Notes: generated from the letters alone by a model not told the origin. A stretch of 32,256 nucleotides of DNA from a virus (IMGVR_UViG_3300006638_000014:1-32256); one strand, 5' to 3'; positions 2,449 to 28,367 are shown, counted from the stretch's first letter. A program made the numbers and translations.

Positions 2449-2729
2449 ACTACGACCAAGAGATTCAAGATATTGTTGCAAATATTAAATCAGATAAATC
2501 TATCGTTCAGCCGTGGCGTAATAAAGCTATGGCCCGACTTGAAGAGGCTCAGGCTTTTATTCGCATGGGTAAGACAACTAGCTTAGAGAAGCCAGACGAT
2601 CCACCTGGTGCTAATCGATTCCCGATACCCAATCATGTTAGTGAACTTAACAACCCTAATAGATGTACTTGTGCTCCTCTCGAAATAGATCCAACTTGTC
2701 CAATTCATGGCAACTACACTCCCTTGTGA
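2445..2729 (+). CDS. Small protein with C-terminal Cys/His motif
   Basis: A 94-residue protein. The N-terminal half is helical and charged. The C-terminus carries NRCTCAPLEIDPTCPIHGNY, a CxC...CPIH arrangement that could bind one zinc ion. It starts in an ATGA overlap with the previous gene and is the last gene before the terminase promoter at 2727-2735. No family is recognised. Confidence 0.6.
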   Translation: MNYDQEIQDIVANIKSDKSIVQPWRNKAMARLEEAQAFIRMGKTTSLEKPDDPPGANRFPIPNHVSELNNPNRCTCAPLEIDPTCPIHGNYTPL

Positions 2730-2741
2730 TATGCTTAAATC
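2727..2741 (+). promoter_or_regulatory. Extended -10 promoter, leaderless start of TerS
   Basis: TG (2727-2728), one base, then TATGCT (2730-2735), then six bases to the ATG at 2742. No Shine-Dalgarno is present. Transcription starting 6-7 nt after the -10 box would begin at the start codon itself, giving a leaderless mRNA for the terminase operon. Confidence 0.5.
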
Positions 2742-3263
2742 ATGCAACCCAGTGCAACAGACCAAAATGTTAAAACAGAGATAAAACCCAGAAAACTTGA
2801 TGCGTTCGAGGGTTATATAACTTGGCGCGCTCTTGGCGGATTGATCATTGACGAAGAGTATAAGGGCACCGACGAACGAGGCAACCCTAAGACATTTACT
2901 AATCATGTTCGGCAAATGACACTTGGTGAGTTCTGCGAAGCGTTTAATGTTGACCGGGCTACAACATGGCGATGGCGAACCAATACACCAAACCTTGCTG
3001 AGTTGGTTGAGAAACGTCGTAACGAAATAATACCTGTGGCTCGAGTATCAGCTGCCTGGAATCAATTATTCTTACTAGGCATGCAATCGGGCGACAAACG
3101 AGCAGCGGTTGATGCACTAAAGACCTTTCTAGGTCATTATGGCAACCTACAATTGCCGGTACAGCGAGAGATCGTCAAACATGAGGGTGAATCATGGGCA
3201 TCGCTAGTAGCTGCTAAACGTAAGCAGGTCGAAAGTACGACAAATGCCACCACAAGCGACTAA
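2742..3263 (+). CDS. terS: Terminase small subunit
   Basis: A 173-residue protein immediately upstream of, and overlapping by 20 nt, the large terminase gene. It contains a helix-turn-helix (TLGEFCEAFNVDRATTWRWR, about residues 66-85), as expected for recognition of packaging-site DNA. A helical region follows (MQSGDKRAAVDALKTFLGHYG) that resembles the oligomerisation part of small terminases, and then a short tail that would contact the large subunit. The start lacks a Shine-Dalgarno and lies 6 nt after an extended -10 box, so it is probably read from a leaderless transcript. The call rests on position plus HTH architecture; small subunits diverge quickly. Confidence 0.8.
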   Translation: MQPSATDQNVKTEIKPRKLDAFEGYITWRALGGLIIDEEYKGTDERGNPKTFTNHVRQMTLGEFCEAFNVDRATTWRWRTNTPNLAELVEKRRNEIIPVARVSAAWNQLFLLGMQSGDKRAAVDALKTFLGHYGNLQLPVQREIVKHEGESWASLVAAKRKQVESTTNATTSD

Positions 3264-4884
3264 AGAGGACATCGACTTTCTAAGAGATATTTATCTCAAA
3301 GAGCCTCAAGACTTTGTTACCGAGGTGCTGGGTGCTAAGTGTTGGGATATGCAGGTTGAGATCACTAAGTCAGTATTTGTTAACAAAATAACAGCCGTTA
3401 AGACTTGTAACTCAGTTGGCAAGAGTTTTATCGCTGCCAGAATCGTTGTTACCTGGCTGATGCTCTACGAAGACTCGATTGTTGTTACAACTGCACCAAC
3501 TTGGTCGCAGGTTACTGACGTACTTTGGCGAGAGATCGCTACGACTGTTAAATTATCAAAGTTCAAGCTAACCGATAACGAAGTCTTGACTGCCGGGCTA
3601 AGTTTAGGTGAGAAGTGGTATGCCGTTGGGCGATCGACCAACCGACCTGAGAACTTTTTTGGTTACCACGCTGATCATCTACTTGTTGTTGTTGACGAGG
3701 CAGGTGGCGTTGATGAGCCAATATTCAAGGGCGTTGCTGCTATTACGCCAAACGTTAATGCTCACATCTTGCTGATCGGTAACCCAACCAAGCCTAGCGG
3801 CACGTTCTTTGATTACTTTGATAAACCACAACTTGGTGCACGGTGCTTTACGATCTCGGCGTTTGACTCGCCTAACTTTACGGCCCTGGGAATCAAGACA
3901 GTTGAAGACCTAGTTGCTATGTTCAAGCCACCTGAGGGTACTGACCAAGTTGACTTTATTAGGCAGGTTAATGCCGAAATACAATCACGGCTCGATCCAA
4001 CGTTCACGGCTTTAATCGACCCGGCGACAGTTTATGGTCGTTTCTACGAGTGGGGTCAAGATTCGGCCGCCTGGCAAGCGTTGGTCATGGGCGAGTTCCC
4101 AACTCATGCTGAACAACAATTGATTCCAACCGACCTTGTTATGCTGGCAATGAACATGTCTGGTGTTGATGAAGCCAGCGGCAAGACTTATGCCGAGTTA
4201 TCTGGTTGGGATATACCTGATGGCCCACCAGAACATGGAGTCGATATGGCAAGGTACGGTAACGACTCAACTGTTGATACGCCCCGGCATGGTGGTTGGG
4301 TTGAGAGGCAGATCGTTTGGAATAAGACTAGTCTGATGGACTCAGCCGATAAGATACTGGTAATTATTAACCCACTCGATCCCAATACCAGAGTCGATAT
4401 TGACGATACCGGTAATGGTGGCGGCACAACAGACCGCCTTAGACAAATTGGTGGTATTGAACAACGCCGGGCAGGTAAGCCGGTTCACCAATACCAATTA
4501 GTTGCCTACAACTTCTCGAGCAAAGAGTTGATGCGAGAGCCAGACAAGTTTCACGACATTACCAGCGAGTTATATTGGAATCTGCGGACTTGGTTCTTTA
4601 AGCACCAGATCGCCCTGCCAAATGACGTACAATTACGTGATGAATTGATCGCCAGGCGTTGGTCGATATTGCCTAACGGCAAAATTAAGGTCGAGTCAAA
4701 AGATGAATACAAAAAGAGAACAGGCGGCCGATCGCCCGACCGATCTGACTCGTTGGTATTAGCCTTTGCTGGTGGCAAGCGTTCGGTTCGCAATACAACT
4801 GCACCAATAAACCCAGATGACCGAGAAGCAAAGATTAAACCTTATACATCAAGTCTTGGTAGCTTAAATCAACGTGGGTGGTAG
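3244..4884 (+). CDS. terL: Terminase large subunit (packaging ATPase and nuclease)
   Basis: This 546-residue protein is the DNA-packaging motor. The N-terminal ATPase has a Walker A at residues 54-61 (TCNSVGKS, a variant P-loop), a Walker B at 146-152 (LLVVVDEA) and the coupling motif LLIGNPT at 176-182. The C-terminal RNase H-like nuclease has acidic residues in VDMARYGND (about 333-341), VDIDDTGNG (384-391) and SPDRSDSLVLAF (498-509), the usual three-part metal site. The nuclease start resembles Mu-type terminases. It overlaps terS by 20 nt and precedes the portal. Length is typical and all motifs are intact. Confidence 0.95.
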   Translation: MPPQATKEDIDFLRDIYLKEPQDFVTEVLGAKCWDMQVEITKSVFVNKITAVKTCNSVGKSFIAARIVVTWLMLYEDSIVVTTAPTWSQVTDVLWREIATTVKLSKFKLTDNEVLTAGLSLGEKWYAVGRSTNRPENFFGYHADHLLVVVDEAGGVDEPIFKGVAAITPNVNAHILLIGNPTKPSGTFFDYFDKPQLGARCFTISAFDSPNFTALGIKTVEDLVAMFKPPEGTDQVDFIRQVNAEIQSRLDPTFTALIDPATVYGRFYEWGQDSAAWQALVMGEFPTHAEQQLIPTDLVMLAMNMSGVDEASGKTYAELSGWDIPDGPPEHGVDMARYGNDSTVDTPRHGGWVERQIVWNKTSLMDSADKILVIINPLDPNTRVDIDDTGNGGGTTDRLRQIGGIEQRRAGKPVHQYQLVAYNFSSKELMREPDKFHDITSELYWNLRTWFFKHQIALPNDVQLRDELIARRWSILPNGKIKVESKDEYKKRTGGRSPDRSDSLVLAFAGGKRSVRNTTAPINPDDREAKIKPYTSSLGSLNQRGW

Positions 4885-4895
4885 AATAGACTTAA
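4882..4895 (+). promoter_or_regulatory. -10 box before the portal gene
   Basis: TAGAAT at 4882-4887 is followed by AGACTTAA and the ATG at 4896. The 16-nt string from TAGAAT onward matches the one before 25584 at 14 positions. No Shine-Dalgarno is placed correctly for the portal start, so a near-leaderless transcript is likely. Confidence 0.45.
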
Positions 4896-6395
4896 ATGGA
4901 TAACCAACCGACTCAACCAACCAATACGCCAGCCATATCCTTACCCCCTCAGGCTCAGCAACCAATTGGAAAATCAGGTACTTACTTCTTTAAGGGCTAC
5001 ATAACCGCTGAGGAATACTCGATTGATCTGCAAGGTAAATATGCTTTACAGGTCTATGACGTTATGCGTAAAAGTGATGCTACAGTTCACGCGGCACTTT
5101 CGATTATTAAGCAACCAATACTTGGTGCTGATTGGGACTTTGACCCGGCTAGTAAGGACGAAGTCGACATTGAGGTTTGTGATCGCATGAAGCGTGAGCT
5201 TATGGGTCGCAAGATCATCTTTCATGATTTGCTTAGAGAGGTATTAACATTCCTAGACTTTGGGCACTTTGTTGCCGAGGAAGTCTTTGAGAATACCGAG
5301 GACGAGAACGGTCCATATATTGGCTTCGCTAAGATCGCCAGTCGTAAGCAACGATCGATACTTAAGTGGTCACAAGACGACGATACTCCAGGTATTACTC
5401 AGATATTGCCCTCAGGTGGTAGCGTTAATATCCCTCGGCAGAAGCTACTTTATGTAGTTAACGAGCAAGAGGGTGAGAACTACCTCGGCGTTAGCTTGCT
5501 GAGATATATCTACAAACCTTGGAAGATCAAGGACTCGCTTGAGATCATGAACGCTATTAGCCTAGAGAAAATGGGGCTTGGGATACCTTATATCAAAAAA
5601 AATGTTAATGGTTTGACGACTGACGAGACTGAACTTGAGGATGCCAGAGATATGTTACGCCAACAACGAGCTAATGAAGAGGCTTATTTTGAATACCCAG
5701 ACAGCATAGAAATCGGCTTTACTGATATGAAAGGTAGTACCACCAAAGAGATTATTCCGACAATTGAATATCAAGATCACCAGATATTGCTGTCGGTCTT
5801 GGCACAATTCTTATTGTTAGGCTCTAACGATAGTGCTGGGTCAAAAGCCGTTAGTGCCGATCACAGTTCAATGTTCGTTAAGTCTATTCAAGCCGTAGTA
5901 CAAATCGTTAAAGATGCCATTACACGAGACGTGGTACAAAGGTGGGTTGATCTTAACTACTCAAATCTCGAGAACGGTTACCCACAACTAAAATGTACCG
6001 GCATTGATGATGAAGACATGATCAGCGTATCAACTGCTATTGCGGCCGTATTTACAGCTGGGGCAATGCAACCTTCAGCCGAAGTTGAGAATCTACTGCG
6101 TAAATTATTCGACATACCTGAGATGACCGACGAGGAAGTTGAGGCTTATGACGAGAAAGTTGCGGCCAATAAACCTGCACCGCCAGTATTTGGTCAACCG
6201 GGCGTGCCTGTTGATCCTGCCAACCCAGTTGTTACGCCTACACCCAAGCAAGGTCTACCAGATACTAACGGCGATCCTAAGCTAGATGATGCTGAGGGTG
6301 CTCTTGAGGCTAAAAAAGCTGCTAAGACCAAGGCAGCGATTGATAATGCTCGTGCTGCCCAGAAGCAACTACTTGGTGCGTTCGCAGGTTTTTAG
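4896..6395 (+). CDS. Portal protein, Mu gp29/DUF935-like
   Basis: This 499-residue protein forms the dodecameric ring through which DNA enters the capsid. 'AALSIIKQPILGADWDFDPAS', the helix with CDRMKREL and 'LTFLDFGHFVAEEVFE' match the pattern of DUF935 portals related to Mu gp29. Further support is its position directly after TerL and before a MuF protein. The N-terminal 30 residues are Pro/Gln/Thr-rich and the C-terminal 70 are Pro/Ala/Lys-rich, so both ends look flexible. The start lies 8 nt after a TAGAAT box without Shine-Dalgarno. Confidence 0.88.
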   Translation: MDNQPTQPTNTPAISLPPQAQQPIGKSGTYFFKGYITAEEYSIDLQGKYALQVYDVMRKSDATVHAALSIIKQPILGADWDFDPASKDEVDIEVCDRMKRELMGRKIIFHDLLREVLTFLDFGHFVAEEVFENTEDENGPYIGFAKIASRKQRSILKWSQDDDTPGITQILPSGGSVNIPRQKLLYVVNEQEGENYLGVSLLRYIYKPWKIKDSLEIMNAISLEKMGLGIPYIKKNVNGLTTDETELEDARDMLRQQRANEEAYFEYPDSIEIGFTDMKGSTTKEIIPTIEYQDHQILLSVLAQFLLLGSNDSAGSKAVSADHSSMFVKSIQAVVQIVKDAITRDVVQRWVDLNYSNLENGYPQLKCTGIDDEDMISVSTAIAAVFTAGAMQPSAEVENLLRKLFDIPEMTDEEVEAYDEKVAANKPAPPVFGQPGVPVDPANPVVTPTPKQGLPDTNGDPKLDDAEGALEAKKAAKTKAAIDNARAAQKQLLGAFAGF

Positions 6396-6396
6396 C

Positions 6397-7251
6397 ATGA
6401 CTGAGCTAGAACTTGAAGCAGTTAAGATCACTGCCATGATATTGTCGACTGAAGGTTGGGCAAAATCTTATTTCAAAGCACCTGATCAACACAAAGAACT
6501 TATCGATCAAACCGCCAAGTTTACTGTATTGCTAACAAAGTTTTTTAAAGAAATGGCTAAAGATGCACCGAACTTTGTTAATTGGGATCACTATAATTAC
6601 CAAGTTAGCCTTGATTACAAGGTAGATGTGATCGTAAATGGCGAGACAATAGCTAACTGGGATACTAACTTCATTAAGGTCAATTACAAGGTTATTAACA
6701 ATTTAATTGCTGCTGGGGCAGTTGCCGGTCAAGAGACCTACAATATACCTCTCGGTATCCAAAGTACCGATGCAATTATTCAACAATTAAGCCTCAAGCA
6801 AATTGCCGGGCTAGTTGGTAAGTCAGTGGCCAAGGACGGCAGTATAATCGATAATCCAAACCCTGCTTATGATGTACTCGATACTGTAAGAAACGACATT
6901 ATGCAGTCGGTTAAAACTAGTCTGGCGACTGGAGCTACTACTGATGAGGCAATAGCTGATATGCAAACAGTTATTTCTAACCCAGCAAGAGCAGTAATGA
7001 TCGCTAATACTGAATCGGTTAATGCTTATCAAGCCGGCTTAAGTGAGTTTGCCAGTCAGAGTGATGCTGTAGGTAAAGAGTGGGAGACAGCCGATGATCC
7101 ATGCGATATATGTCAGGCCAACGCTGATGAAGGCCCAATCGCAATTGATGATACCTTTGACTCTGGTGATGATGAGCCAACTGCCCACCCAAATTGCCTT
7201 TGTGGCGACCGGCTAATTTACCAACAAGAGTGGGACGGCTTGCAAGGTTGA
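6397..7251 (+). CDS. MuF-like minor head protein
   Basis: This 284-residue protein is the minor capsid/head morphogenesis protein of the Mu gp30 (MuF) type. The C-terminal signature is clear: MIANTESVNAYQAG, then W-E-T-A-D-D-P-C-D-I-C, then AHPNCLCGDRL, the Cys/His pattern typical of the family. I chose the ATG at 6397, one base after the portal stop, because the frame's earlier start at 6286 lies inside the portal gene. The N-terminal half is helical and would contact the portal. The product is usually a few copies per virion, sometimes ejected with DNA. Confidence 0.9.
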   Translation: MTELELEAVKITAMILSTEGWAKSYFKAPDQHKELIDQTAKFTVLLTKFFKEMAKDAPNFVNWDHYNYQVSLDYKVDVIVNGETIANWDTNFIKVNYKVINNLIAAGAVAGQETYNIPLGIQSTDAIIQQLSLKQIAGLVGKSVAKDGSIIDNPNPAYDVLDTVRNDIMQSVKTSLATGATTDEAIADMQTVISNPARAVMIANTESVNAYQAGLSEFASQSDAVGKEWETADDPCDICQANADEGPIAIDDTFDSGDDEPTAHPNCLCGDRLIYQQEWDGLQG

Positions 7252-7285
7252 CAATATCTTTTGGCTAGTAGATTATTAAATCAAC
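7248..7285 (+). promoter_or_regulatory. Sigma70-type promoter with leaderless start
   Basis: A perfect TTGACA (7248-7253), 17-nt spacer, GATTAT (7271-7276), then nine bases to the ATG at 7286. The start codon has no Shine-Dalgarno, so the transcript would have a leader of about two or three bases at most. The -35 box overlaps the stop codon of the MuF gene. This would give separate, strong transcription of protease, scaffold and capsid genes. Confidence 0.65.
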
Positions 7286-8563
7286 ATGCTAAAAACCGAC
7301 GACCCGAACATTAAAATGTACCGAGTGAGTAAAGTTGAACTTGATGCCAGTGGTCAGCCACCTAGTCGAATTATGATTATGCAGACCGGCAACTGGCCTG
7401 ATTCAATGAAGGGTAATTTTACAATTAACCTAGATGACCTTAAGCAAATTAAAGAGAACTTTGATAATAAAATAGGCTTCCCAACGGCCGATGCTTCGAC
7501 TGGGTTGGCGATCGACTTCATGCACAACTACGCTGCTCAGGCTGGTGCTTGGATCAAGGGACTTGAACTAGACATTGATCATAACGACCCAACTCAGGGT
7601 AAATTATTTGCTACACCAATTGAATGGACTGATGCCGGAAGTAAAGCGGTTATGAGTGGCGAGTTTAAAATGATTAGCCCCAGCGGATATTTTGGTAGGA
7701 AGAACGGCAAACTCAGTATGTGGCCGAATCCACAGGATTTAAAAGAGAAAGTTGCTAATGTACTTGACGGAGCAGGATTAACTAATATACCATTTCTACG
7801 TGGAATGAGTCCGATTCGAGCATCCGCCGAAGACGATTTGGACAACAAACTTGAGTATGATAAAGTAATTTTTATAAGCGAAAAACCAAACAAGGAGCTA
7901 GAAATGACACTCGATCAAATTAGAATCAAAGAAGCCAACAGCCTAAGTACCGAAGAGAAGGCTTTTTTGGAAGAGCATCGTAGTGAACTGTCAGTTGAAG
8001 AGATTAAGAAGTTCGACATGGAAGCCAAGGAAGAACTATCTGCCGAGGATAAGGCATTATTAACACCAGAAAATAAAGAACTTCTTGCTTCAATTAAGTC
8101 TGGTGAAAAGAAAGTTATTAACGCCAGCGACGAGTCAGTTGATAAGACTCGACTTGACTCACTTGAGGCTACAGCCCTAGAATTCAAGACCGAGAAAGCT
8201 AATACTGTTGTTGAAGCTCATGTTAAGCGTGGTGCTATCAAACAAGATGCTGCAGAGAATTGGACTAAGCGATTATTGTCAGTTGACACAGCTGAGCGAA
8301 CTGCACTTGAAGCAGACCTTGCGGCATTACCTTCTAACGAATTATTGTCTAATGAGATTGGTTCTGGCGAGGACACTCATGCCGGTAATACTGCCCGAGA
8401 CCAACTGCACGTAATTGCTAATAAGAAAGTCGAAGAGGCTGCTAAGGGTGGTAAGGAATTACTATACTCAGATGCCCTCAAGCAAGCCATTCGCGAGAAT
8501 GAGGCTTTGTCGACTCAGGACGGTATTGAGCAAAAAACTAAATTCACAGGAGTAGGAGTTTAA
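7286..8563 (+). CDS. Prohead protease with C-terminal scaffold domain, Mu gpI-like
   Basis: This 425-residue protein combines a maturation protease and a scaffold. Residues 1-140 follow the Mu gpI pattern: IDFMHN (76-81), AGAWIKGLELD (86-96), a GKLFATPIEWT segment (105-115) and EFKMISPSGYF (126-136). Residues 205-425 are acidic, helical and rich in Glu/Lys/Ala, as in scaffolds. An internal in-frame ATG at residue 207 with a strong Shine-Dalgarno probably makes the scaffold alone. The start is leaderless behind a TTGACA promoter. I could not identify the catalytic residues with certainty. Confidence 0.82.
   Translation: MLKTDDPNIKMYRVSKVELDASGQPPSRIMIMQTGNWPDSMKGNFTINLDDLKQIKENFDNKIGFPTADASTGLAIDFMHNYAAQAGAWIKGLELDIDHNDPTQGKLFATPIEWTDAGSKAVMSGEFKMISPSGYFGRKNGKLSMWPNPQDLKEKVANVLDGAGLTNIPFLRGMSPIRASAEDDLDNKLEYDKVIFISEKPNKELEMTLDQIRIKEANSLSTEEKAFLEEHRSELSVEEIKKFDMEAKEELSAEDKALLTPENKELLASIKSGEKKVINASDESVDKTRLDSLEATALEFKTEKANTVVEAHVKRGAIKQDAAENWTKRLLSVDTAERTALEADLAALPSNELLSNEIGSGEDTHAGNTARDQLHVIANKKVEEAAKGGKELLYSDALKQAIRENEALSTQDGIEQKTKFTGVGV
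7904..8563 (+). CDS. Nested scaffold protein from an internal start
   Basis: Within the protease gene, AAGGAG (7892-7897) lies six bases before an in-frame ATG at 7904 (residue 207 of the long form). The product would be 219 residues covering only the acidic helical scaffold part. This matches the known I/Z arrangement of phage Mu and C/Nu3 of lambda, where the scaffold is read from inside the protease gene. The long form lacks a Shine-Dalgarno while this internal site has one of the best in the window, so scaffold may be made in excess. Confidence 0.7.
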   Translation: MTLDQIRIKEANSLSTEEKAFLEEHRSELSVEEIKKFDMEAKEELSAEDKALLTPENKELLASIKSGEKKVINASDESVDKTRLDSLEATALEFKTEKANTVVEAHVKRGAIKQDAAENWTKRLLSVDTAERTALEADLAALPSNELLSNEIGSGEDTHAGNTARDQLHVIANKKVEEAAKGGKELLYSDALKQAIRENEALSTQDGIEQKTKFTGVGV

Positions 8564-8564
8564 C

Positions 8565-9005
8565 ATGGCCAATTATTCAGAAGGTAGATACATTGATCGA
8601 GTAGCAGGTGCAGACCTTAGTGGTGTAAACCCAACCGGTACTGCTCCCTCAAATTGCTTATTTAGAATTGTAAGCTATCAAGCAGATGCAACTAACCCAA
8701 CCGGGCGATCGGTTGTAATGACCACTTCTGCAACGGACGCTAATATACTTGGTGTTCTTAACAACCAGCCAGTAGCTGGTGAGACCGCTTCGGTCATGGG
8801 CCGCAATGGTTCTGGTACATTCAAAGTTGTCGTAAGTGCCAACTCTTCCGGTGTAGCAATTGGTGATGCCCTTACTGCCTCTTCAGATTCTGGTGCAATT
8901 ACTACTACCACTTCAACTAATCAGATAATTGGTTATGCTCAAGAAGCTGGTGCAGCTGGGCAAGTCATTGAATACTTACCAGCAAATCATAAATACGGTA
9001 ACTAA
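8565..9005 (+). CDS. Capsid decoration/cement protein, DUF2190-like
   Basis: This 146-residue, Gly/Ala/Ser/Thr-rich beta protein lies between scaffold and major capsid genes, the classic place for a head-stabilising protein. 'ILGVLNNQPVAGETASVMGRNGSGTFKVVVSANSSGVAIGDALTASSDSG' and 'IIGYAQEAGAAGQVIEYL' follow the pattern of DUF2190 proteins, which form trimeric or monomeric studs on capsids. A good Shine-Dalgarno (AGGAG) precedes the ATG, and only one base separates it from the scaffold stop. Confidence 0.8.
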   Translation: MANYSEGRYIDRVAGADLSGVNPTGTAPSNCLFRIVSYQADATNPTGRSVVMTTSATDANILGVLNNQPVAGETASVMGRNGSGTFKVVVSANSSGVAIGDALTASSDSGAITTTTSTNQIIGYAQEAGAAGQVIEYLPANHKYGN

Positions 9006-9027
9006 TAAATAAAAAGGAACTAACAAT

Positions 9028-9966
9028 ATGCAAGGCCAATTTTTTACCCCAGATATACCACTAACAAACGTTAGCCAGGCATATCGTAACGATCCAATGC
9101 AGTTTATTGCCGAGCAGGTATTCCCTGTCGTCAATGTTGCCAAGAAGCGATTTAACATCTACTTCTACGGTAAAGAGAATCTAAAAGAAGTCGTTGATGA
9201 CACTCGAACTAGATTCGGTGACACCAAGCAAGCTCAATATAGTGTTACTAGCAAGCCATTTGGCCCACTTACTGGTCACGAACTTATGGACGGCATCGAC
9301 TTCGATCAGGACGAAATGACCGAAGCACCTCTTGATACAGAAATTGATATTGTTAACGCTCTAAGTGAAATGATGGCCTTAGTTAAAGAGCGAATAGTTG
9401 CTACCGCCTGCGGTAACACAGCTATTATGACTCAGAACACAACATTGTCTGGTACAAGTCAGTGGAATGATTACGCTAACTCAACTCCATTTGAAGATCT
9501 TAAGACTGCTACTCAGCAACAACGCCTATACGGTCTACGACCGGCTAATACCTTGATCCTATCGTTCTTAACATTCTCTGTCTTACAGCAACACCCTGAC
9601 TTTCTAGAGCGAGTTAAATACTCAGGTCTAGCATCATTGACCCTAGAGCTCATGACTACCCTACTTGGTCAGTTCGGCATTACCCGAATCTTAGTCTCAA
9701 GTGCAGTCGAGGATACTGCAGGCGAAGGTTTAACAGCCAGCAATTCATTTGTCTGGGGTAAGAACGCTTTACTAGCCTATATTACCGGTGCTCCAAGTCT
9801 ACGAACAGTTAATGGTGGCTATACATTCGTGCTCAACAATGGTCGCTACGTTGATAGCTGGTTCGAACAGAAGAAAAAGACTAAGTGGATTCGAAATAAC
9901 GACTACTATGTACCTCAAGTAGTTGGCCCAGAAGCATTTTACTTGATTAAAAACGCTGTAGCGTAA
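9028..9966 (+). CDS. Major capsid protein (HK97-type)
   Basis: This 312-residue protein follows the decoration gene and has the composition expected of a major capsid protein. The N-terminal 'IAEQVFPVVNVAKKRFNIYFYGKENLKEV' and the central segment from DTEIDIVNALSEMMALVKERI (about 105-125) resemble Mu-like coat proteins, with a long spine helix and a P-domain region. 'YGLRPANTLILSFLTFSVLQQHPDFLERVKYSG' is typical of the coat proteins in this group, where a query position and peptide binding loop follow. AAGGA precedes the ATG. There is no obvious N-terminal propeptide, in keeping with a separate scaffold. Confidence 0.85.
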   Translation: MQGQFFTPDIPLTNVSQAYRNDPMQFIAEQVFPVVNVAKKRFNIYFYGKENLKEVVDDTRTRFGDTKQAQYSVTSKPFGPLTGHELMDGIDFDQDEMTEAPLDTEIDIVNALSEMMALVKERIVATACGNTAIMTQNTTLSGTSQWNDYANSTPFEDLKTATQQQRLYGLRPANTLILSFLTFSVLQQHPDFLERVKYSGLASLTLELMTTLLGQFGITRILVSSAVEDTAGEGLTASNSFVWGKNALLAYITGAPSLRTVNGGYTFVLNNGRYVDSWFEQKKKTKWIRNNDYYVPQVVGPEAFYLIKNAVA

Positions 9967-9976
9967 GGAGTCTAGG

Positions 9977-10591: not shown

Positions 10592-10605
10592 TAGGAGTTT
10601 AAATT

Positions 10606-11142: not shown

Positions 11143-11154
11143 AGAGTTTAACTC

Positions 11155-11874: not shown

Positions 11875-11881
11875 AATAGAC

Positions 11882-12439: not shown

Positions 12440-12493
12440 ATTAGAATATATTATGCAGGTTAAGTCAATACCATCAATAACACCCAAATGTAG

Positions 12494-12505
12494 TAGAATT
12501 GAACT
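12494..12505 (+). promoter_or_regulatory. -10 box for the HNH endonuclease
   Basis: TAGAAT (12494-12499) then TGAACT and the ATG at 12506; no Shine-Dalgarno. Same 6-nt distance as at 2742 and 27897. An own leaderless promoter is consistent with a mobile gene inserted within an operon. Confidence 0.45.
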
Positions 12506-12958
12506 ATGTCAAGATGGGAGCATGATAAGCCAACAGCACATACTGCCTATATGCGAGAGTGGAAAAAGACACCGGCAGGCGAAGCATACCGTCTTAGACA
12601 TAATGCGTACATTAAAGAATGGCGCAAGAAAAATCCTGAAAAATTCCATGCTACTCAAAAACGTGCTATCGAAAAAATGCGCTATGATACTTTGTCTCAT
12701 TACTCTAACGGTGAGCCAAAATGTGCTTGCTGTGGTGAGGTGGAGATTCTATTCTTACAAATTGACCACATCAATGACGACGGCGCAAACCACCGCCGAC
12801 AAATGGTTAAAGAACAAGGCTATATTTCGGGCGGCAACAACCTCCCTTATTGGCTTAAAAAGAATAATTACCCACCAGGCTTTCAAGTTTTATGCGCAAA
12901 CTGCAACTGGGGTAAACGGCTTGCAGGCAAATGCCCTCACCAATTAACGAAAGGATAA
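12506..12958 (+). CDS. HNH endonuclease (probably a free-standing homing type)
   Basis: A 150-residue nuclease. CACC at 73-76 and CANC at 130-133 form the usual zinc-binding knuckles. Between them QIDHINDDGANHRR (85-98) supplies the H88 metal/general-base position and N90, and FQVLCANCNWGKR supplies the final Asn of the HNH motif. The basic N-terminus (YMREWKKTPAG, a repeat-like NAYIKEWRKKNPEK) would bind DNA. It interrupts a run of structural genes, has its own -10 box, and differs in Lys/Cys-rich composition from its Thr/Ala-rich neighbours, all suggesting a mobile endonuclease. A package-linked role is less likely because it is far from the terminase. Confidence 0.85.
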   Translation: MSRWEHDKPTAHTAYMREWKKTPAGEAYRLRHNAYIKEWRKKNPEKFHATQKRAIEKMRYDTLSHYSNGEPKCACCGEVEILFLQIDHINDDGANHRRQMVKEQGYISGGNNLPYWLKKNNYPPGFQVLCANCNWGKRLAGKCPHQLTKG

Positions 12959-12962
12959 TATT

Positions 12963-13839: not shown

Positions 13840-13854
13840 AAGGAGTAATATAAC

Positions 13855-15099: not shown

Positions 15100-15108
15100 G
15101 GGATCTAT

Positions 15109-16362
15109 ATGTTTGGCTCTAACTACTTTGGCTCTAACTACTTCGGTGAGGCGTATCCCGGCGTTAACTCTAGTTCTACGCCGACTACCCAGAACATCAC
15201 CGGCAAAGCTAGAATAACCGCAACAATCGCACAAAACCAGCTCGGTAAGTCTCGGATCGCTATAACTACGGTCAAGACTATAGCTGGCAAATCTCGTATA
15301 ACTATCTCGACACCTAAAACTCAGCCGGGTAAAGCAAGAATAACGGCCACCACTCTACAAACGATTTTAGGTAAGAGTCGTATAACTACTACCGATTTAA
15401 AGACAATTCAGGGTAAAGCCAGGGTTACTATTAGCACCGATCAGACCGTAACTGGTAAGGGTCGCATTACCACAATCACCGATCAGACGATCGCAGGCAA
15501 ATCTAGGGTAACGGCGACCACTGCTCGCACTCAGCTAGGTATGGCTAATATTGGTACTCCTACCGACCAGACGATCTTAGGTAAGGCTAGAGTCAGAGTA
15601 ACCACGCTACAACTACAAACTGGTAAAGCTAGAATCACAGCTATTACTGTTAAAACGGTTACTGGTAAATCGCGAATCACCATATCTACCGATCAAACTA
15701 TTGTCGGCAAGGCTAATATTATTGCCACCACGCCAAGAACTATCCCCGGCAAAGCACGTATTACGGCAATAACTTTGCAAACTATCTCGGGTAAGTCACG
15801 AGTCACTAATACAACTCTTCGTACAATCTTGGGTAAATCACGTATTACAATATTGACCCTTCAGACTATTACTGGTAAGTCTCGGATAACAGCAATAACA
15901 CTCCAGACAATTAGTGGTAAATCTCGCATCCAAGTAACCTCGTCTCAGCAGCAACTAGGTAAATCTAGAATTAGTGTAGCTAGCTCAAAAACTCAACTCG
16001 GTAAGGCTTCAATTCTTATTACAACCACTCGCAATAACCTAGGCAAAGCTCGCCTAACCGCGATTACCGCACAGACCCAATTAGGTAAATCTCGCCTATC
16101 AATGCTAAGCAACAGAACCCAACTCGGTAAAGCTAGAGTAGCCCTAATATCAAGCCAGACTCAGTTAGGTAAGGCCTCAATTATTACCCCACTGAGACCA
16201 ACTAAGCCGATCTATATTAACCAAATTGACCTAATTGCCCGATTACGACAGAATCAAAGCGGCATATTGGTAGCTGACAATGATGACAATATGATTTATG
16301 GCCGGCAATATAGCGACGTGGCTATCGCCCTTGATAACTCACCAGAAAATATCAACTTGTAG
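15109..16362 (+). CDS. Tandem-repeat protein, about 24 copies of a 14-residue unit
   Basis: A 417-residue protein. The N-terminus has FGSNYFGSNYFGEAYPG, an aromatic/Gly signature seen at the start of some phage structural proteins. Residues about 32-367 are uninterrupted repeats of 14 residues following G-K-[AS]-R-[IV]-x-[IV/A]-x-[ST]-x-x-[TN]-x-x. The unit is 42 bp, and DNA copies have diverged at synonymous sites while the GK[AS]R core is held, so the protein pattern is selected. Alternating beta residues suggest a beta-helix or stacked strands with a ladder of Lys/Arg. The last 50 residues are not repetitive. The protein is probably a virion fibre or surface element; no family name is known to me. 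Confidence 0.75.
   Translation: MFGSNYFGSNYFGEAYPGVNSSSTPTTQNITGKARITATIAQNQLGKSRIAITTVKTIAGKSRITISTPKTQPGKARITATTLQTILGKSRITTTDLKTIQGKARVTISTDQTVTGKGRITTITDQTIAGKSRVTATTARTQLGMANIGTPTDQTILGKARVRVTTLQLQTGKARITAITVKTVTGKSRITISTDQTIVGKANIIATTPRTIPGKARITAITLQTISGKSRVTNTTLRTILGKSRITILTLQTITGKSRITAITLQTISGKSRIQVTSSQQQLGKSRISVASSKTQLGKASILITTTRNNLGKARLTAITAQTQLGKSRLSMLSNRTQLGKARVALISSQTQLGKASIITPLRPTKPIYINQIDLIARLRQNQSGILVADNDDNMIYGRQYSDVAIALDNSPENINL
15202..16209 (+). repeat. 42-bp imperfect tandem repeats inside CDS
   Basis: About 24 in-frame units of 42 bp, each beginning with GGTAAA- or GGCAAR-like codons for Gly-Lys followed by Ala/Ser-Arg. DNA identity between units is moderate because codon third positions vary, so this is an old repeat kept by protein-level selection more than a recent slippage product. 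Confidence 0.85.
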
Positions 16363-16378
16363 TAATATAGGAGTAACG

Positions 16379-17401
16379 ATGCCAACACAAACATTAACTC
16401 TCACAAATTTTGACTCAGGCAATATAACCGCTCAGAGTCAATTAACTTCTAACATTGCTGCTGCCGTTAGCTCGCTACCAGTCGACAACACGGCAGATTT
16501 TGTTACTACTAACTTTGTGCTTATTGGCGTAATTGGAAGTAATGTAGCCGAGTTAGGTGCTATTACTGGCATTACCGACCCGACAGATATTGCCACAACT
16601 AGCCCTACGAAAGTCGCTCACACTCAATACGATCCTGTCTATCAGTTACTTGGCGATCAGCTCAGAGTCTACCGAGCCGCTAACGTTGACGACAGTCAGC
16701 CTGCCGATACTGAGTTCAGTGTAATTGCGACAATTGATATTATTCCGAATCAAACATCTACTCCTTACACAGATAATAGCGGTGGTGGCAACTATTGGTA
16801 CAAATACACTCACTACAACTCGGTATCGTTTGCCGAAACGTCACTAGCCTCGAGTGTGGCGATACGTGGTAGTTTCACTGTTAACTATGCTTCAATTGAC
16901 GAGATTCGACAACGTGCTGGCTTCCAGTATGCTCCCTATGTTACTGACACGATGATCGATGCCGCCCGGCAATCGGCTCAGGACGAGGTTAATGGTGCTC
17001 TTGATGAGTTTTATGAGACACCACTCCAACCCCCAATTAACGATTATCTTAGAGATATAGTCGTTCGCTTAGCTGTTGGCCATTTACTACTTGATCAATA
17101 CGGCCAGAGTTCAGCCGGTACAACTGCTGACGGCAAAGCCAAGCTAGCTGATGCTCAGGGCGATCTAAAGAAGTTAGTGCTTAAAGAGCGAGTATTGGTT
17201 GGCAAAGACGGTAAGGCTCTCGACGGCCCGGGTGCAACTGGTGGCATCGGTGGCTGGCCAAATAAGACTACAAGCTTTGCCAGTAGACATGACGGTGGTG
17301 CTCCTCGGCAGTTTAGAATGAGCGATATAGCTGGGCGACGAGAATCTGGCAATAACCCTAGCAATCAAGGCGACAATATTTATTACGGCAGAAAGTATTA
17401 G
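16379..17401 (+). CDS. Head-tail connector, gp36/DUF1320-like, with N-terminal beta domain
   Basis: A 340-residue protein. Residues 1-165 are a beta domain with SLPVDNTADF and GVIGSNVAELG patterns, plus an apparent fibronectin-like strand set (YWYKYTHYNSVSFAETSLAS). From about residue 175, YASIDEIRQRAGFQ, TDTMIDAARQSAQDEVNGALDEFYETPL and DIVVRLAVGHLLLDQYG match the helical head-tail adaptor group that includes Mu gp36. The final 70 residues are Gly/Arg-rich. TAGGAG (16368-16373) sets the ATG at 16379; earlier in-frame starts lie within the repeat gene. It probably sits between portal and tail. Confidence 0.78.
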   Translation: MPTQTLTLTNFDSGNITAQSQLTSNIAAAVSSLPVDNTADFVTTNFVLIGVIGSNVAELGAITGITDPTDIATTSPTKVAHTQYDPVYQLLGDQLRVYRAANVDDSQPADTEFSVIATIDIIPNQTSTPYTDNSGGGNYWYKYTHYNSVSFAETSLASSVAIRGSFTVNYASIDEIRQRAGFQYAPYVTDTMIDAARQSAQDEVNGALDEFYETPLQPPINDYLRDIVVRLAVGHLLLDQYGQSSAGTTADGKAKLADAQGDLKKLVLKERVLVGKDGKALDGPGATGGIGGWPNKTTSFASRHDGGAPRQFRMSDIAGRRESGNNPSNQGDNIYYGRKY

Positions 17402-17404
17402 TCA

Positions 17405-17869: not shown

Positions 17870-17870
17870 A

Positions 17871-18392: not shown

Positions 18393-18394
18393 CA

Positions 18395-18432
18395 TTGACA
18401 CCTAAATACCAATAGCTTAATATAAGGTCAAC
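18395..18432 (+). promoter_or_regulatory. Sigma70-type promoter before the tail genes
   Basis: A perfect TTGACA (18395-18400), 17-nt spacer, TAATAT (18418-18423), nine bases to the ATG at 18433. AAGG at 18424-18427 might act as a Shine-Dalgarno if transcription starts early, but a start 6-7 nt after the -10 leaves only a 2-3 base leader. It would drive the tail operon. Confidence 0.65.
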
Positions 18433-18693
18433 ATGCCATATAAATACCAAATAGAAAAAGGGCAAGAGAGTCGGATATTTGCTAATGCACGTAACCTTGG
18501 TGACGGAACTGTCGAGAGCGATACTGAGCTTAGTAGCCCATGGCTTACACTTGTTAATGATAAATCTACGCCACCTGCAGCTAATGATTCGCCAGTTACT
18601 CCGAGTGCGACCCCACCTATTCCTCAGACTCAAGCTGTAAACCCAGTGCCCCCAGCACAAACACAAACAAACCCTAATCAGGAGACTAAGTAG
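18433..18693 (+). CDS. Small protein with disordered tail
   Basis: An 86-residue protein. The first 45 residues look folded (MPYKYQIEKGQESRIFANARN, then DTELSSPWLTLVND); the last 40 are Pro/Thr/Gln/Asn-rich. It lies between the tail terminator-like and tail tube genes behind a strong promoter. No family is recognised. Confidence 0.6.
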   Translation: MPYKYQIEKGQESRIFANARNLGDGTVESDTELSSPWLTLVNDKSTPPAANDSPVTPSATPPIPQTQAVNPVPPAQTQTNPNQETK

Positions 18694-18695
18694 CC

Positions 18696-19898: not shown

Positions 19899-19907
19899 GA
19901 GTCATAA

Positions 19908-20306
19908 ATGGAAGATAACAAGACACTAACCTTACCGTTAACTGGTAAATCAGTAGTTATAAAAGCCTACATGAGTGGCTTTGACGATCAAGAGATCCAA
20001 ACAATACTAGCGGCCGCCAACAAGACCACCTACGAGACAGAGGTTAATCCAACCGGTGATAACAACGTCAAGATAAACCCCGGTGCTACTAAGGTTATTA
20101 TGGCCGTTGACCCAACCGTCAAGTTTAGAGCCGATCAAAAAACCCTTGAACTTATGGTGCTATCAGTTGACGGTGTGACGACAGATGTTGTTAACGCCGT
20201 ACTTGCTCTACCAAAGCAAGATGTTGATTATATAAAAGAGCAGATCAAGGGCGTTGAGAACACCAGCAAGGTAGTGGCTAACGACCCAAAAGTACCGACC
20301 GCCTAA
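19908..20306 (+). CDS. Tail assembly chaperone, short form (G-like)
   Basis: A 132-residue protein between tail tube and tape measure, the site of the G/GT chaperones. TAGGAG precedes the ATG. It ends at a TAA (20304-20306) just after the heptamer CCCAAAA. It includes 'LTLPLTGKSVVIKAYMSGFDDQEIQTILAAAN' and 'ADQKTLELMVLSVDGVTTDVVNAVLALPKQDVDYIKEQI', which match the usual pattern of these proteins (an N-terminal strand pair and a helical core). It is expected to bind the tape measure during tail assembly, with the long form recruiting tube protein, and not to be in the virion. Confidence 0.8.
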   Translation: MEDNKTLTLPLTGKSVVIKAYMSGFDDQEIQTILAAANKTTYETEVNPTGDNNVKINPGATKVIMAVDPTVKFRADQKTLELMVLSVDGVTTDVVNAVLALPKQDVDYIKEQIKGVENTSKVVANDPKVPTA

Positions 20307-20506
20307 GAGAACAGTTACAAAAAGATTACTTTCTAGCGATAAAAAATAAGGGCGGTACTGTTGATCAGCGGTTTAACGCTCTCTCTGTCATGGAGAAGTT
20401 TGGCTGGACTTATGAACAATATTTGCAACGTCCGCTATGGTTTGACCCCCTCTATGAGATAAAATGTAAGGCAGAGGCTAAACTCCAAGATACAAACAAA
20501 TCATGA
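19908..20506 (+). CDS. Tail assembly chaperone, frameshifted long form (GT-like)
   Basis: Ribosomes shifting -1 at CCCAAAA (20285-20291) would bypass the TAA at 20304 and add 71 codons, giving about 199 residues. The added part, starting STDRLREQLQKDYF and ending QDTNKS, contains DYFLAIKNKG, VMEKFGWTYEQYLQRPLWF, the helical W/Y pattern typical of T-domain extensions. Its TGA overlaps the tape-measure ATG. The -1 frame has a TAA at 20279-20281, so the shift must occur in a 25-base window, and the heptamer is the only slippery sequence there. Zero-frame reading is gac-cca-aaa, as required. Confidence 0.82.
20285..20291 (+). promoter_or_regulatory. Slippery heptamer for -1 ribosomal frameshift
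   Basis: CCCAAAA with zero-frame codons C-CCA-AAA fits X-XXY-YYZ. It is the only slippery sequence between the -1 frame stop at 20279-20281 and the zero-frame stop at 20304-20306. No strong downstream hairpin was obvious by eye. Confidence 0.78.
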
Positions 20507-23396: not shown

Positions 23397-25567
23397 TGTC
23401 ACCTACTGGTCCATTGTTTCCTACTACTGCGAGTAGTGGTAGTGGTGCTAATACCGCTTGGACTAATCCAACAAATGCTGAGGCAAGCGATGCCGTATAT
23501 GCTACCGCTACCCTAAGTGCCAGCAGCACCAACAATCTACTAGTGTCGGGTTATGGGTTTAACTTACCCTCGACGGCCGTAATTGATGGTATTTTTGTAG
23601 AGATCGAGCGTTATGGTACAGGTGTCAGCACTAAGAATGTTCAACTGCAAAAAGCTGGTTCGCTAGCTGGGACTGCCAAAGCCGGTATTGACGCTTGGAG
23701 TCCAGCTAACCATTACTTTGGATATGGCTCGCCAACAGATTTATGGGGCACAACCTGGTCGACATCAGACATAAATAACAGTGGCTTTGGGGCTGCTGTT
23801 AGTGCCATCGGTACAGGCACGGCTTCTGTTGATGCCGTCCGCATAACCGTTTATTGGCATACCCCCCCTACGAGTGTATTCAAAGAATACTATTATAAGG
23901 TTGCGAATAATCTTGGCATACCTCTGGGGTTACTACCAATACCAAGTAGCGACCTAAAATTTAGTCAAGACATCAACACCGGTGGATCGCAGACTACAAT
24001 AATCATACCAGTTTCTGCTGATACGAGTGCCTTGCCAGTAGATGTATTAACTGATGAAGCAGGTAATATATTGACCGACGAGAACAGTAATACTCTAACT
24101 GATGAAGGAAAGATACCACTATTTCTACCCGGAAGTTCCAGCCAAAATGCTCTTATTAAAAATGGCAATACTATTCAAATAGTAGTTGTTAATTACTGGC
24201 ATCCTAACGGTAAGGTTATATTCAATGGCATTATGGAAAACTGTGAAGCAACGTTTGGTGGCGATTCTCAGGACGATAGTATAACTATAATTGCTTATGG
24301 TGACGGTGAAGATTTGCAAAATTATATGCTATTAACTGCCCCAACGCTCGACCAATCACAGACTAGTTATAATAGTAATTTCTTAATTAACGCCGCTCAG
24401 ACAATACCGCAAGTCGGTCAAGCCATCAGTCCAGGTGCTGGTGTTACTGGCATTGATCGTATCACCCTAAAATTAGCAGCAGTTATAGCTAATAATCCAG
24501 CCGTAACGGTAAGTATTTATGCCAGCGGTTCGGGAGTATCTAACTTGGCTAGAGCAGCTGCTAACGCTGTTCCAGATGCAACGGCCAGTCAGTTAATTAC
24601 TTCTACATCAGCTCTTAATTATGACTTTGTTTTTAATTACAATTTTCCAGGTACACCACCAGCTTACTATGTAGTAATGGTTACCTGTATTGATGCCAAT
24701 GGAGTTAATGTCTCTTACCAAAATACCAGCGTTTACGCCGACAGCATGGTTACTCAGGCTAACATAACTGGTGATTTGTACTTTCAAACCTACACTCCAA
24801 CTACAGACACAAAGCCGACTTTCACCAGTGAAGATCCATCAAACATGCTACTTAATGCTCTGGGTAGTTATAATGGCGGTATTATTAAATATTCTAATAG
24901 CTCAATCAAAGCTACAGGGTTGTCGTTAACGGCACTCTTTACTACCAGTACAATATATGAGGCGATTCAGGAAGTGCTTACTCTGTCTCCCAGTGGCTTT
25001 TACTTTTATGTTGATCTAGGTACAGACATTTTCTACTTCTTGCAGGCCAGCGTGACTGCCGATATTGTGCTGACTAAAGGTTTGCACATGAACCAGATAA
25101 AGCTAATCTCTACGATTGAGTATGTTATTAACACAGTATTCTTTACCGGTGCTTTAGTATCTGGTGCTAATATCTATACCTATGATCAGAGTGCTAGTAG
25201 TGTAGCTAATTACCGAACAAGGTTAGATCGACCAACCGACTCTCACGTTCTCGACACAACTACCGCCCACACAGTTGCTAAGTCTGAAATAACTCAGAAT
25301 AAAGGTGAACAATACCAGACTGTCGTTACGGTGCTTGATACGGTAATTGATATCTATAGCCTTCACGTTGGTCAAGTCGTCGGTTTTAATGGCTTTGGTA
25401 CTTTTGCCGATAGCATCTTAGCTCAGATTGTCAGAATCGATTATGAGGCCGAACAGGCCACCCTAACTCTTGGTCTAATACCTAAGCGACAGACTAATGT
25501 TGTCGAGACACTTACTAAAGGTTTGATCGCCTTAAATACAATAAATAACCCAACGACTCCGTCGTGA
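23396..25567 (+). CDS. Tail tip hub/tail-associated protein with binding domains
   Basis: A 723-residue protein starting on the last base of the Dit gene. Residues about 15-160 form a beta-sandwich domain with YGFNLPSTAVIDGIFVEIERYG, YGSPTDLWGTTWSTSDINNSGFG and VDAVRITVYW, a module widespread in phage tail proteins. The hub core includes the strand VVVNYWHPNGKVIFNGIMENCEATFGG and the C-terminal part (FYVDLGTDIFYFLQAS, then TRLDRPTDSHVLDTTTAHTVAKSEI) typical of gp27/Tal-like hubs. A second beta-sandwich (about 320-450) is inserted. An LTDE motif repeats three times near 217-240. No peptidase motif was seen. Confidence 0.78.
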   Translation: MSPTGPLFPTTASSGSGANTAWTNPTNAEASDAVYATATLSASSTNNLLVSGYGFNLPSTAVIDGIFVEIERYGTGVSTKNVQLQKAGSLAGTAKAGIDAWSPANHYFGYGSPTDLWGTTWSTSDINNSGFGAAVSAIGTGTASVDAVRITVYWHTPPTSVFKEYYYKVANNLGIPLGLLPIPSSDLKFSQDINTGGSQTTIIIPVSADTSALPVDVLTDEAGNILTDENSNTLTDEGKIPLFLPGSSSQNALIKNGNTIQIVVVNYWHPNGKVIFNGIMENCEATFGGDSQDDSITIIAYGDGEDLQNYMLLTAPTLDQSQTSYNSNFLINAAQTIPQVGQAISPGAGVTGIDRITLKLAAVIANNPAVTVSIYASGSGVSNLARAAANAVPDATASQLITSTSALNYDFVFNYNFPGTPPAYYVVMVTCIDANGVNVSYQNTSVYADSMVTQANITGDLYFQTYTPTTDTKPTFTSEDPSNMLLNALGSYNGGIIKYSNSSIKATGLSLTALFTTSTIYEAIQEVLTLSPSGFYFYVDLGTDIFYFLQASVTADIVLTKGLHMNQIKLISTIEYVINTVFFTGALVSGANIYTYDQSASSVANYRTRLDRPTDSHVLDTTTAHTVAKSEITQNKGEQYQTVVTVLDTVIDIYSLHVGQVVGFNGFGTFADSILAQIVRIDYEAEQATLTLGLIPKRQTNVVETLTKGLIALNTINNPTTPS

Positions 25568-25583
25568 TACAATAGGCTTAAAT
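25565..25583 (+). promoter_or_regulatory. Extended -10 box before the tail tip gene
   Basis: TG-A-TACAAT (25565-25573) followed by AGGCTTAAAT and the ATG at 25584. It shares 14 of 16 bases with the 4882 box. The leader would be 3-4 bases; only a weak AGG lies upstream of the ATG. Confidence 0.5.
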
Positions 25584-26069
25584 ATGAGTAGTAAATTATC
25601 AGGATTACCGACAGAAACAACCTTTGGGTTAACTGATCTTCTAGTTAAGGTAAAGGCATCGGCTGCCGGTGATGTTATAGTGACACTTGCTAAGTTACTT
25701 GCAGCAATGCCGGTCAAGCTTGGTACACTTACGGTTCCTGCATCAACTGGTAATCTTTCAGTAACTGGTCTTGGATTCACTCCACGACTAGTGAGGTTCA
25801 CTTATTTGCCGACAAGTAACACAACATCGGCAGTAGGTGCTTACGGTGTAATGACGGCAGCTGGTCAATTTACAACTGCCTGGTTTGCAGAGAGTGCTGG
25901 TTACAGCCGATACTCAGATCCTTCTGCACATGCCATAGCTATCAACACTGTTGCCTCTACTACCCCTATTGCCAGTGCTTCATTCGTAAGTATGGACTCC
26001 GGCGGATTTACTATTAATTTTGATAATGTCGTTTCTGGATTAATCATAGGTTATGAGGCCCTAGCTTAA
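25584..26069 (+). CDS. Tail tip or receptor-binding protein (candidate)
   Basis: A 161-residue protein between the hub and lysin genes. After a short helical stretch it is beta-rich: NLSVTGLGFTPRLVRFTYLPTSNTT, and then a C-terminal part with 'MDSGGFTINFDNVVSGLIIGYEALA'. These two patterns (GLGFtPklVrf... and sdGFt...n....i.YeAl) occur at the C-termini of phage tail fibre proteins with an H-type-lectin-like fold. Host attachment is inferred from fold pattern and position. Confidence 0.6.
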   Translation: MSSKLSGLPTETTFGLTDLLVKVKASAAGDVIVTLAKLLAAMPVKLGTLTVPASTGNLSVTGLGFTPRLVRFTYLPTSNTTSAVGAYGVMTAAGQFTTAWFAESAGYSRYSDPSAHAIAINTVASTTPIASASFVSMDSGGFTINFDNVVSGLIIGYEALA

Positions 26070-26071
26070 GG

Positions 26072-26091
26072 TATGATAAACTAAAGAAAGG
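26072..26091 (+). promoter_or_regulatory. Promoter and Shine-Dalgarno for lysis cassette
   Basis: TATGAT (26072-26077), AAACTA, then AGAAAGG (26085-26091) ten bases before the ATG at 26102. Unlike most promoters of this window the transcript would carry a leader of about 18 bases with a Shine-Dalgarno. Confidence 0.45.
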
Positions 26092-26101
26092 TTAACGATT
26101 T

Positions 26102-27460: not shown

Positions 27461-27464
27461 AATC

Positions 27465-27881
27465 ATGCACCAAATATTATTTGGTTCAGTAACAGTCGGC
27501 ACAGCCCTAGCTTATCTAGGCGGTGGTGTTGGCGTATCAATTGTAGTTCAGTTATTTAAGCGAGTCTTTGGCTTAAAGAGCTCTAAGATTATCCAGTCAG
27601 TAGTTGCTATATTATCAGTAGCTGCCTCAGCTCTTGCTCAGGTTATATCAGTAGCCCACACCAACCCGACATTGTTAGCCGGTCATGCAGTTGGGATACT
27701 AGGTCTAGCCAACGCTGCTCACACGTTTATCGTGAGCGATGCCGACCAGTTTATAGGTAAAGTTAAAACTGCTCTTAACACTCAAGCAGTCACAACCCCA
27801 CCTAGTACAACCGTCATCACTCCGACTGAAGCTAAACCAGCACAAAATACGAACACTCCCCCTCCATCTGCCGCTTTCTAG
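27465..27881 (+). CDS. Holin-like membrane protein
   Basis: A 138-residue protein directly after the endolysin. Three hydrophobic segments occur in residues 8-32 (TVGTALAYLGGGVGVSIVV), 43-62 and 70-90, with Lys/Arg between the first two, followed by a Pro/Thr-rich soluble tail of about 35 residues. A strong AAAGGAG precedes the ATG. Size, topology and context fit a class I holin, which would make pores for the lysin at a set time. No specific holin family is identified. Confidence 0.7.
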   Translation: MHQILFGSVTVGTALAYLGGGVGVSIVVQLFKRVFGLKSSKIIQSVVAILSVAASALAQVISVAHTNPTLLAGHAVGILGLANAAHTFIVSDADQFIGKVKTALNTQAVTTPPSTTVITPTEAKPAQNTNTPPPSAAF

Positions 27882-27896
27882 TGATATTATGTACTG
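27882..27896 (+). promoter_or_regulatory. Extended -10 box with leaderless GTG start
   Basis: TG-A-TATTAT (27882-27890) then GTACTG and GTG at 27897. Spacing is the same 6 nt as before terS and the HNH gene, and no Shine-Dalgarno exists. Confidence 0.5.
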
Positions 27897-28367
27897 GTGA
27901 AACAACCGGTATTAAGACCATATCAACCGCCCAGACGTTATATACCCAAACACGTTAAGCATGAAGAGAACCTGCAGCGGCAGGTCTGTACTTATTTGCG
28001 AATGCAATATCCTCACGTTATTTTTAGAAGTGATTACGGTAGCGGATTACTCTTAACCCAGAATCAAGCACGTAATCAAGCTAGTATGCAATCGGGTCGC
28101 GGCTTCCCCGACCTCTTTATTTATAATTCTCAGCGTGGTTACCACGGTCTGGCCCTCGAACTCAAGCGTGAAGGAGTGACCCTATATCTTAAGACCGGGC
28201 CGCGTAAAGGTAAATTGACCGGCGATCTACATATTCAAGAACAAGCTGCTATGCTGCAGGCACTTAATAATGCCGGTTATTTTGGCAGATTCGCCGTTGG
28301 TTTTGATAGTGCTCAAAAGATAATCGATTGGTATATGGGCAAGCCAGCCAATGCTAGCTTATTCTAG
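27897..28367 (+). CDS. VRR-NUC domain nuclease
   Basis: A 156-residue protein of the VRR-NUC group of PD-(D/E)XK nucleases. Key residues: E24 in the first helix (HEENLQRQVCTYL), D72 in GRGFPDLFI, E88 and K90 in GLALELKREG, and Q114/Q116 in the following helix. Members act on branched DNA or Holliday-junction-like structures. It starts with GTG after an extended -10 box, with no Shine-Dalgarno. It follows the holin, at the end of the plus-strand run. It may resolve recombination intermediates made with RecT/YqaJ, or help packaging; both are inferred. Confidence 0.82.
   Translation: MKQPVLRPYQPPRRYIPKHVKHEENLQRQVCTYLRMQYPHVIFRSDYGSGLLLTQNQARNQASMQSGRGFPDLFIYNSQRGYHGLALELKREGVTLYLKTGPRKGKLTGDLHIQEQAAMLQALNNAGYFGRFAVGFDSAQKIIDWYMGKPANASLF

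Follow-up and report, generated by a model that had tools for sequence, protein, structure and literature searches.

IMGVR_UViG_3300006638_000014:1-32256 is an entire IMG/VR phage record of 32,256 bases, and the window analysed here (the whole stretch of DNA) covers all of it. The phage is siphovirus-like, and its packaging, head and tail genes are listed with the promoter sites in Table 1. Within the head-tail gene run, the protein encoded at 15109-16362 is built mostly from repeats of ~17 residues (GKARITxTTxxTxx / GKSRIT type). Two tail genes lie ahead of the tape measure gene, at 19908-20503, with 196 nt from the end of 19908-20306 to 20503, and their position would fit a tail assembly chaperone frameshift pair. 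A short membrane protein encoded on the minus strand (497-934) matches the VIT1 family weakly (Pfam E 3.5e-5, under the curated cut-off).

Table 1. Genes and putative promoter sites in the window; gap, nucleotides between the end of the -10 box and the start codon; SD, Shine-Dalgarno sequence.
Feature	Position	Strand	Details
TerS -10 TATGCT	2730-2735 (site 2730..2744)	+	gap 6; start codon 2742; extended -10 (TGA-TATGCT)
TerS-like gene	start 2742	+	name inferred from position and size
TerL	start 3244
Portal -10 TAGAAT	4882-4887 (site 4882..4898)	+	gap 8; start codon 4896
Portal	start 4896	+
Head morphogenesis protein	start ~6397
Protease promoter	site 7248..7288	+	-35 TTGACA 7248-7253; 17 bp; -10 GATTAT 7271-7276; gap 9; start 7286
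Head maturation protease	start 7286	+
SD-class contrast region	8551..9030	+	decorator and major capsid protein starts
Decorator-like protein	ATG 8565	+	SD AGGAG; name inferred from position and size
Major capsid protein (MCP)	ATG 9028	+	SD AAGGA
HNH endonuclease -10 TAGAAT	12494-12499 (site 12494..12508)	+	gap 6; start codon 12506
HNH endonuclease	start 12506	+
Extra site, -10 TAATAT	16363-16368 (site 16363..16381)	+	abuts stop codon; gap 10; ATG 16379
Promoter of 18433 gene	site 18395..18435	+	-35 TTGACA 18395-18400; 17 bp; -10 TAATAT 18418-18423; gap 9; start 18433
Tail tube-like protein	start 18696		name inferred from position and size
Tape measure protein	start 20503
-10 TACAAT	25568-25573 (site 25568..25586)	+	gap 10; start codon 25584
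Nuclease-like gene -10 TATTAT	27885-27890 (site 27885..27899)	+	gap 6; GTG start 27897
Nuclease-like gene	GTG start 27897	+
RecT and YqaJ-type exonuclease		-

Start-adjacent -10 boxes in the window

All seven -10 hexamers reported by the first-pass annotation are present, with gaps to the start codon of 6, 8, 9, 6, 9, 10 and 6 nt, and its account of their surroundings also held. These starts lack an SD, as it had claimed for most of them, save for an AAGG at 18433, just downstream of the 18418 box, that is not conserved; perfect TTGACA boxes stand 17 bp upstream of the -10 at two sites (7248 and 18395); 14 of 16 bases are identical between the boxes at 4882 and 25568; and three sites have TG one base before the -10, in each case within a TGA triplet. 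Two of these triplets, before 2730 and before 25568, are the upstream gene's stop codon, and the portal box at 4882 opens with TAG, the TerL stop codon. The genes are tightly packed, with stop-to-start distances of 12, 11 and 16 nt at TerS, portal and 25584, respectively. GATTAT at 7271 is a weak hexamer, and the conserved -35 carries that site. A perfect small inverted repeat (ACGACTCCGTCGT; 25551-25565), possibly an operator or the mRNA end of the upstream gene, adjoins the 25584 gene's TGATACAAT -10 on its upstream side.

Boxes were scored with a -10 position weight matrix (PWM) built from general E. coli box frequencies. The window has a box (PWM>=4, gap 5-11) before 6 of its 13 non-SD starts and before 36 of its 501 other ATGs (7%; p=2.3e-4), an excess that is modest but significant within the window alone. 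In the relatives without the window (gap 6-11), boxes were found at 29 of 143 non-SD starts vs 5 of 146 SD starts (p=5e-6). Because stop codons supply letters to some boxes in tightly packed genes, shuffles that preserve the upstream stop codon were used as a control for the relatives; these gave 9.0 ± 2.9 boxes against the 29 observed, none of 500 reached 29, and a stop-codon artefact was rejected on that basis. Promoter-like sites in a generic sigma-70 scan were in no overall excess over shuffles, and the promoter signal is positional rather than one of overall abundance.

Sites for column analysis (36) were selected by hexamer alone, leaving the flanking letters independent of selection. 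G stands two bases before the box at 25 of the 36 (69%; p about 3e-8) and TG one base before it (TGn) at 14, and this presence of TGn before the hexamer beyond chance points to extended -10 promoters. The pooled -35 signal of the phage sites, with TTGACA perfect at the two sites named above, is not significant (z 1.3). Gaps in the clade range from 6 to 11 with a mode of 8, and a box occurs at 20.8% of its non-SD starts, vs 5.2% in distant TerL relatives (about 24-37% identity), in which no peak was seen and low-GC members reach 7.2%.

Conservation among close relatives

A TerL search yielded 18 close relatives (53-79% identity), of which five long records were read, and orthologous starts were compared. 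All 13 TerS orthologs compared lack an SD, and 12 of them have a -10-like hexamer at gap 7-9 from the ATG (TATAAT, TATGAT, TAGACT, CATAAT, TATACT, TACTAT, TATCAT, TATTAT, TACCAT or TATGCT). Over the 40 bases upstream of the ATG, sequence identity does not rise above background (median 28%, maximum 47%), and from 9 to 283 nt separate TerS from the gene before it; the boxes persist despite these differing surroundings. At the portal gene, a -10 stands at gap 8-11 in 8 of 14 orthologs and an SD precedes the start in 2 of 14; the remaining orthologs have a recognisable promoter farther upstream and a longer leader, for example TTGCAA-17-CATAAT. Such longer leaders were found at the portal genes of relatives L005, L009 and G007 and at the 25584 gene of G003. 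Among 47 starts from seven control families (head morphogenesis, decorator, capsid, tail tube, 22623, peptidase and holin), no -10 stands at gap 6-11 (0 of 47; Fisher test, p 9e-12 for TerS and 1e-6 for portal). All 8 decorator orthologs and 6 of the 10 for MCP have an SD, and none of either has a -10 at that distance.

Relatives retain full -35/-10 promoters at the protease and 18433 starts. The protease promoter takes the form of TTGACA then GATTAT in G006 and G007, of TTGACA then CATCAT in G004 and of TTTACA...CATAAT in G005, and 2 of 13 protease orthologs pass the strict -10 test. The 18433 ortholog in G003 (56% amino acid identity) retains TTGACA-17-TAATAT-9-ATG but not the AAGG, and orthologs of the nuclease-like gene have TATTAT (G006) or TAGAAT (G007) at gap 6, each before ATG. 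The single ortholog of 25584, in G003, has TATAAT at gap 16 and an SD-like AGGAA instead, and the HNH endonuclease at 12506 has no ortholog in the relatives compared.

The division into two classes suggested by the first-pass annotation, of -10-adjacent starts without an SD and SD starts inside gene runs, is conserved across relatives on both sides, and a reading of the boxes as genuine promoter elements at leaderless spacing is supported. From gene to gene, the predicted start mode (SD or leaderless) has been conserved as this uncultured phage clade diverged.

Predicted leaderless starts and transcription units

Sigma-70-type promoters, often with an extended -10, likely explain the TerS, portal, protease, 18433 and nuclease-like gene starts, and HNH and 25584 are probably also served by -10-adjacent promoters. 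The -10 box of such a promoter would end about 6-11 nt ahead of the start codon, and RNA polymerase, starting about 7 nt past the box, would produce an mRNA leader of roughly 0-5 nt; with a leader too short for an SD, ribosomes would initiate as on a leaderless message, and in-run genes without such promoters would use their SD on read-through transcripts. The gaps of 6-10 nt at the seven sites, and the clade excess at gap 6-11, agree with the spacing of leaderless genes. Conserved N-terminal regions of the TerS and portal proteins precede any later Met, so the codon beside the box is the true start of both; the starts of 27897 and the HNH gene are predicted ones. The distance from a -10 box to the transcription start is usually 6-9 nt, and leaders of ~0-5 nt should therefore be expected for TerS and portal; with 8 as the commonest clade gap (range 6-11), a leader of 1-5 nt is as likely as none. 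The start at 27897 is GTG, unusual in a leaderless message. Transcription start sites, leaderless translation and timing are all predicted here.

Module-by-module transcription, as read from the same boxes by the first-pass annotation, found no backing: no terminator-like site was detected on the + strand just upstream of the promoters, in a search that weak or unusual terminators may escape, and internal promoters superimposed on read-through fit as well as strict transcription by module. At 16379, an SD (AGGAG) sits between the -10 and the ATG; orthologs of this gene have TATACT or TACAAT at gap 9-10 (G004, G006, G007 and L016) or TAATAT at gap 12 (G005), with an SD-like stretch within the same gap in most. 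An mRNA begun at the neighbouring promoter would lack such an SD, whereas read-through mRNA would carry it; this suggests that the phage uses both kinds and that this start may be read in two ways.

The coexistence of -10 and SD at 16379, in the window and in most relatives, together with the lack of + strand terminator-like sites ahead of the promoters, would also suit real promoters that mainly boost one long operon, the read-through mRNA being mostly translated and the leaderless starts a minor product; however, an SD is found in none of the 13 TerS orthologs, so that, without coupling, initiation on read-through mRNA would be poor at this gene, and we regard this reading as unlikely. It is very improbable that the boxes are chance -10 look-alikes in AT-rich stop and spacer DNA, with the SD-less starts reached by termination-reinitiation from the upstream gene, since the tight packing at TerS, portal and 25584 and the three boxes that adjoin or contain a stop codon would favour this, but stop-preserving shuffles fail to give the excess (0/500), the TerS boxes persist while flanks and distance to the previous gene change, and SD genes packed as tightly have no boxes (0/47).

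The reading that we prefer for the phage, leaderless expression driven by ORF-adjacent -10 boxes, describes a phenomenon already known in several bacterial groups. In a bacteria-wide survey, leaderless genes were marked by a TANNNT signal some 12 bp before the start, and operon-distal genes used an SD (PMC3160421); such signals have been tested in Deinococcus (Deinococcus-Thermus; PMC12340547). The phage resembles these genes (PMC3160421, PMC12340547) in a -10 that ends shortly before a start without an SD, in the GGAG-type SD on other genes, in the SD at operon-distal genes and in the extended TG, there seen in medium and low GC genomes. Unlike them, the putative sites here belong to a phage, and their distance to the start codon is a little longer and less uniform (commonest gap 8 vs about 6). 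Lambda cI, the first leaderless mRNA found in phage (mentioned in PMC3160421), likewise has a phage promoter and a transcript (here predicted) that begins at or beside the start codon; cI is one regulatory gene, whereas here the arrangement is repeated at structural and packaging genes of one phage clade, and the comparison implies no kinship between the phages.

Candidate hosts

It is plausible that the host translates leaderless mRNA well, and we infer a lineage with many leaderless genes. Saccharimonadia are the best candidate host among those tested, not a demonstrated one; the genomes considered are presumed members of this class. In seven Patescibacteria genomes positive for the 16S primer TM7-580F, a box ends 6 nt before the codon at 18.6% of non-SD starts and 7 nt before it at 8.2%, whereas the background is about 1.5% per position; SD starts show no peak. 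One of the presumed Saccharimonadia, G130, which matches four TM7 primers (TM7-580F and three others), carries a box at gap 6-11 before 41.9% of its non-SD starts vs 5.9% of its SD starts, is of similar GC, and correlates in tetranucleotide composition with the window and with four of the five long relatives (0.54-0.65). These correlations are among the highest of 25 genomes or loci sampled, with G131 and G026 similar, and the composition match to a Saccharimonadia host is suggestive only.

Infection of Saccharimonadia (TM7) by the phage clade, with start signals copied from a host rich in leaderless mRNAs, would draw on these similarities, that is, the two start classes of the TM7 primer-positive genomes, gap 6-7 in 27% of their non-SD starts, and the box frequencies and composition of G130. 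Against it, no prophage or close gene was found in the sampled genomes, the commonest gap is 6 rather than the 8 of the phages, and other Patescibacteria (G131, G143) likewise show peaks or similar composition; we hold it as a tentative and somewhat improbable proposal. The genomes searched for close phage genes, 185-245 of the class, gave none, and a TerL profile search in Patescibacteria gave remote matches only (about 33% identity or less). A TerL search of the genome collection for prophages found no credible one. Its one close match, L044 (contig JAGXRF010000063.1 of a 'Flavobacteriales' MAG, 62% TerL identity), was rejected as a prophage and read as a probably misbinned phage contig, because it has the same genes as virus record L006/G005, in which a terminal repeat of 127 bases is present. 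Other genes were tried as host clues and set aside: RtcB of relative G006 has its best match (56%) in Patescibacteria genome G305, whose upstream regions are unlike the TM7-like ones, and in Saccharimonadia the genes for a glycosyltransferase, a peptidase and a VIT-like protein had either no match or matches of 33-35%.

Like the phage, the Saccharimonadia genomes have two start classes, an extended -10 and medium GC; unlike the phage, they have a narrower gap distribution that peaks at 6 and a clear -35 signal (z 8.7), and no genes shared between the two were found. It is rather doubtful that Saccharimonadia both use leaderless mRNAs at large scale, with an adjacent -10 at about a third to half of non-SD starts, and are infected by this phage clade, which would keep leaderless promoters where its packaging and head genes adjoin, to be translated by such ribosomes; in the papers covered, neither was described. 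A signature of this kind, read from sequence alone, could help link such phages to leaderless-rich hosts.

No report on leaderless or SD usage in Saccharibacteria, Patescibacteria or CPR was found, with partial coverage of the literature, and the boxes beside their starts suggest that leaderless expression may be abundant in Saccharimonadia. The leaderless signature was seen at presumed Saccharimonadia loci L135-L156 and L165-L169 (genomes G197, G175, G130, G088, G038 and G185), where the extended -10 peaks 6 nt before the ATG of non-SD genes and is accompanied by the -35 signal.
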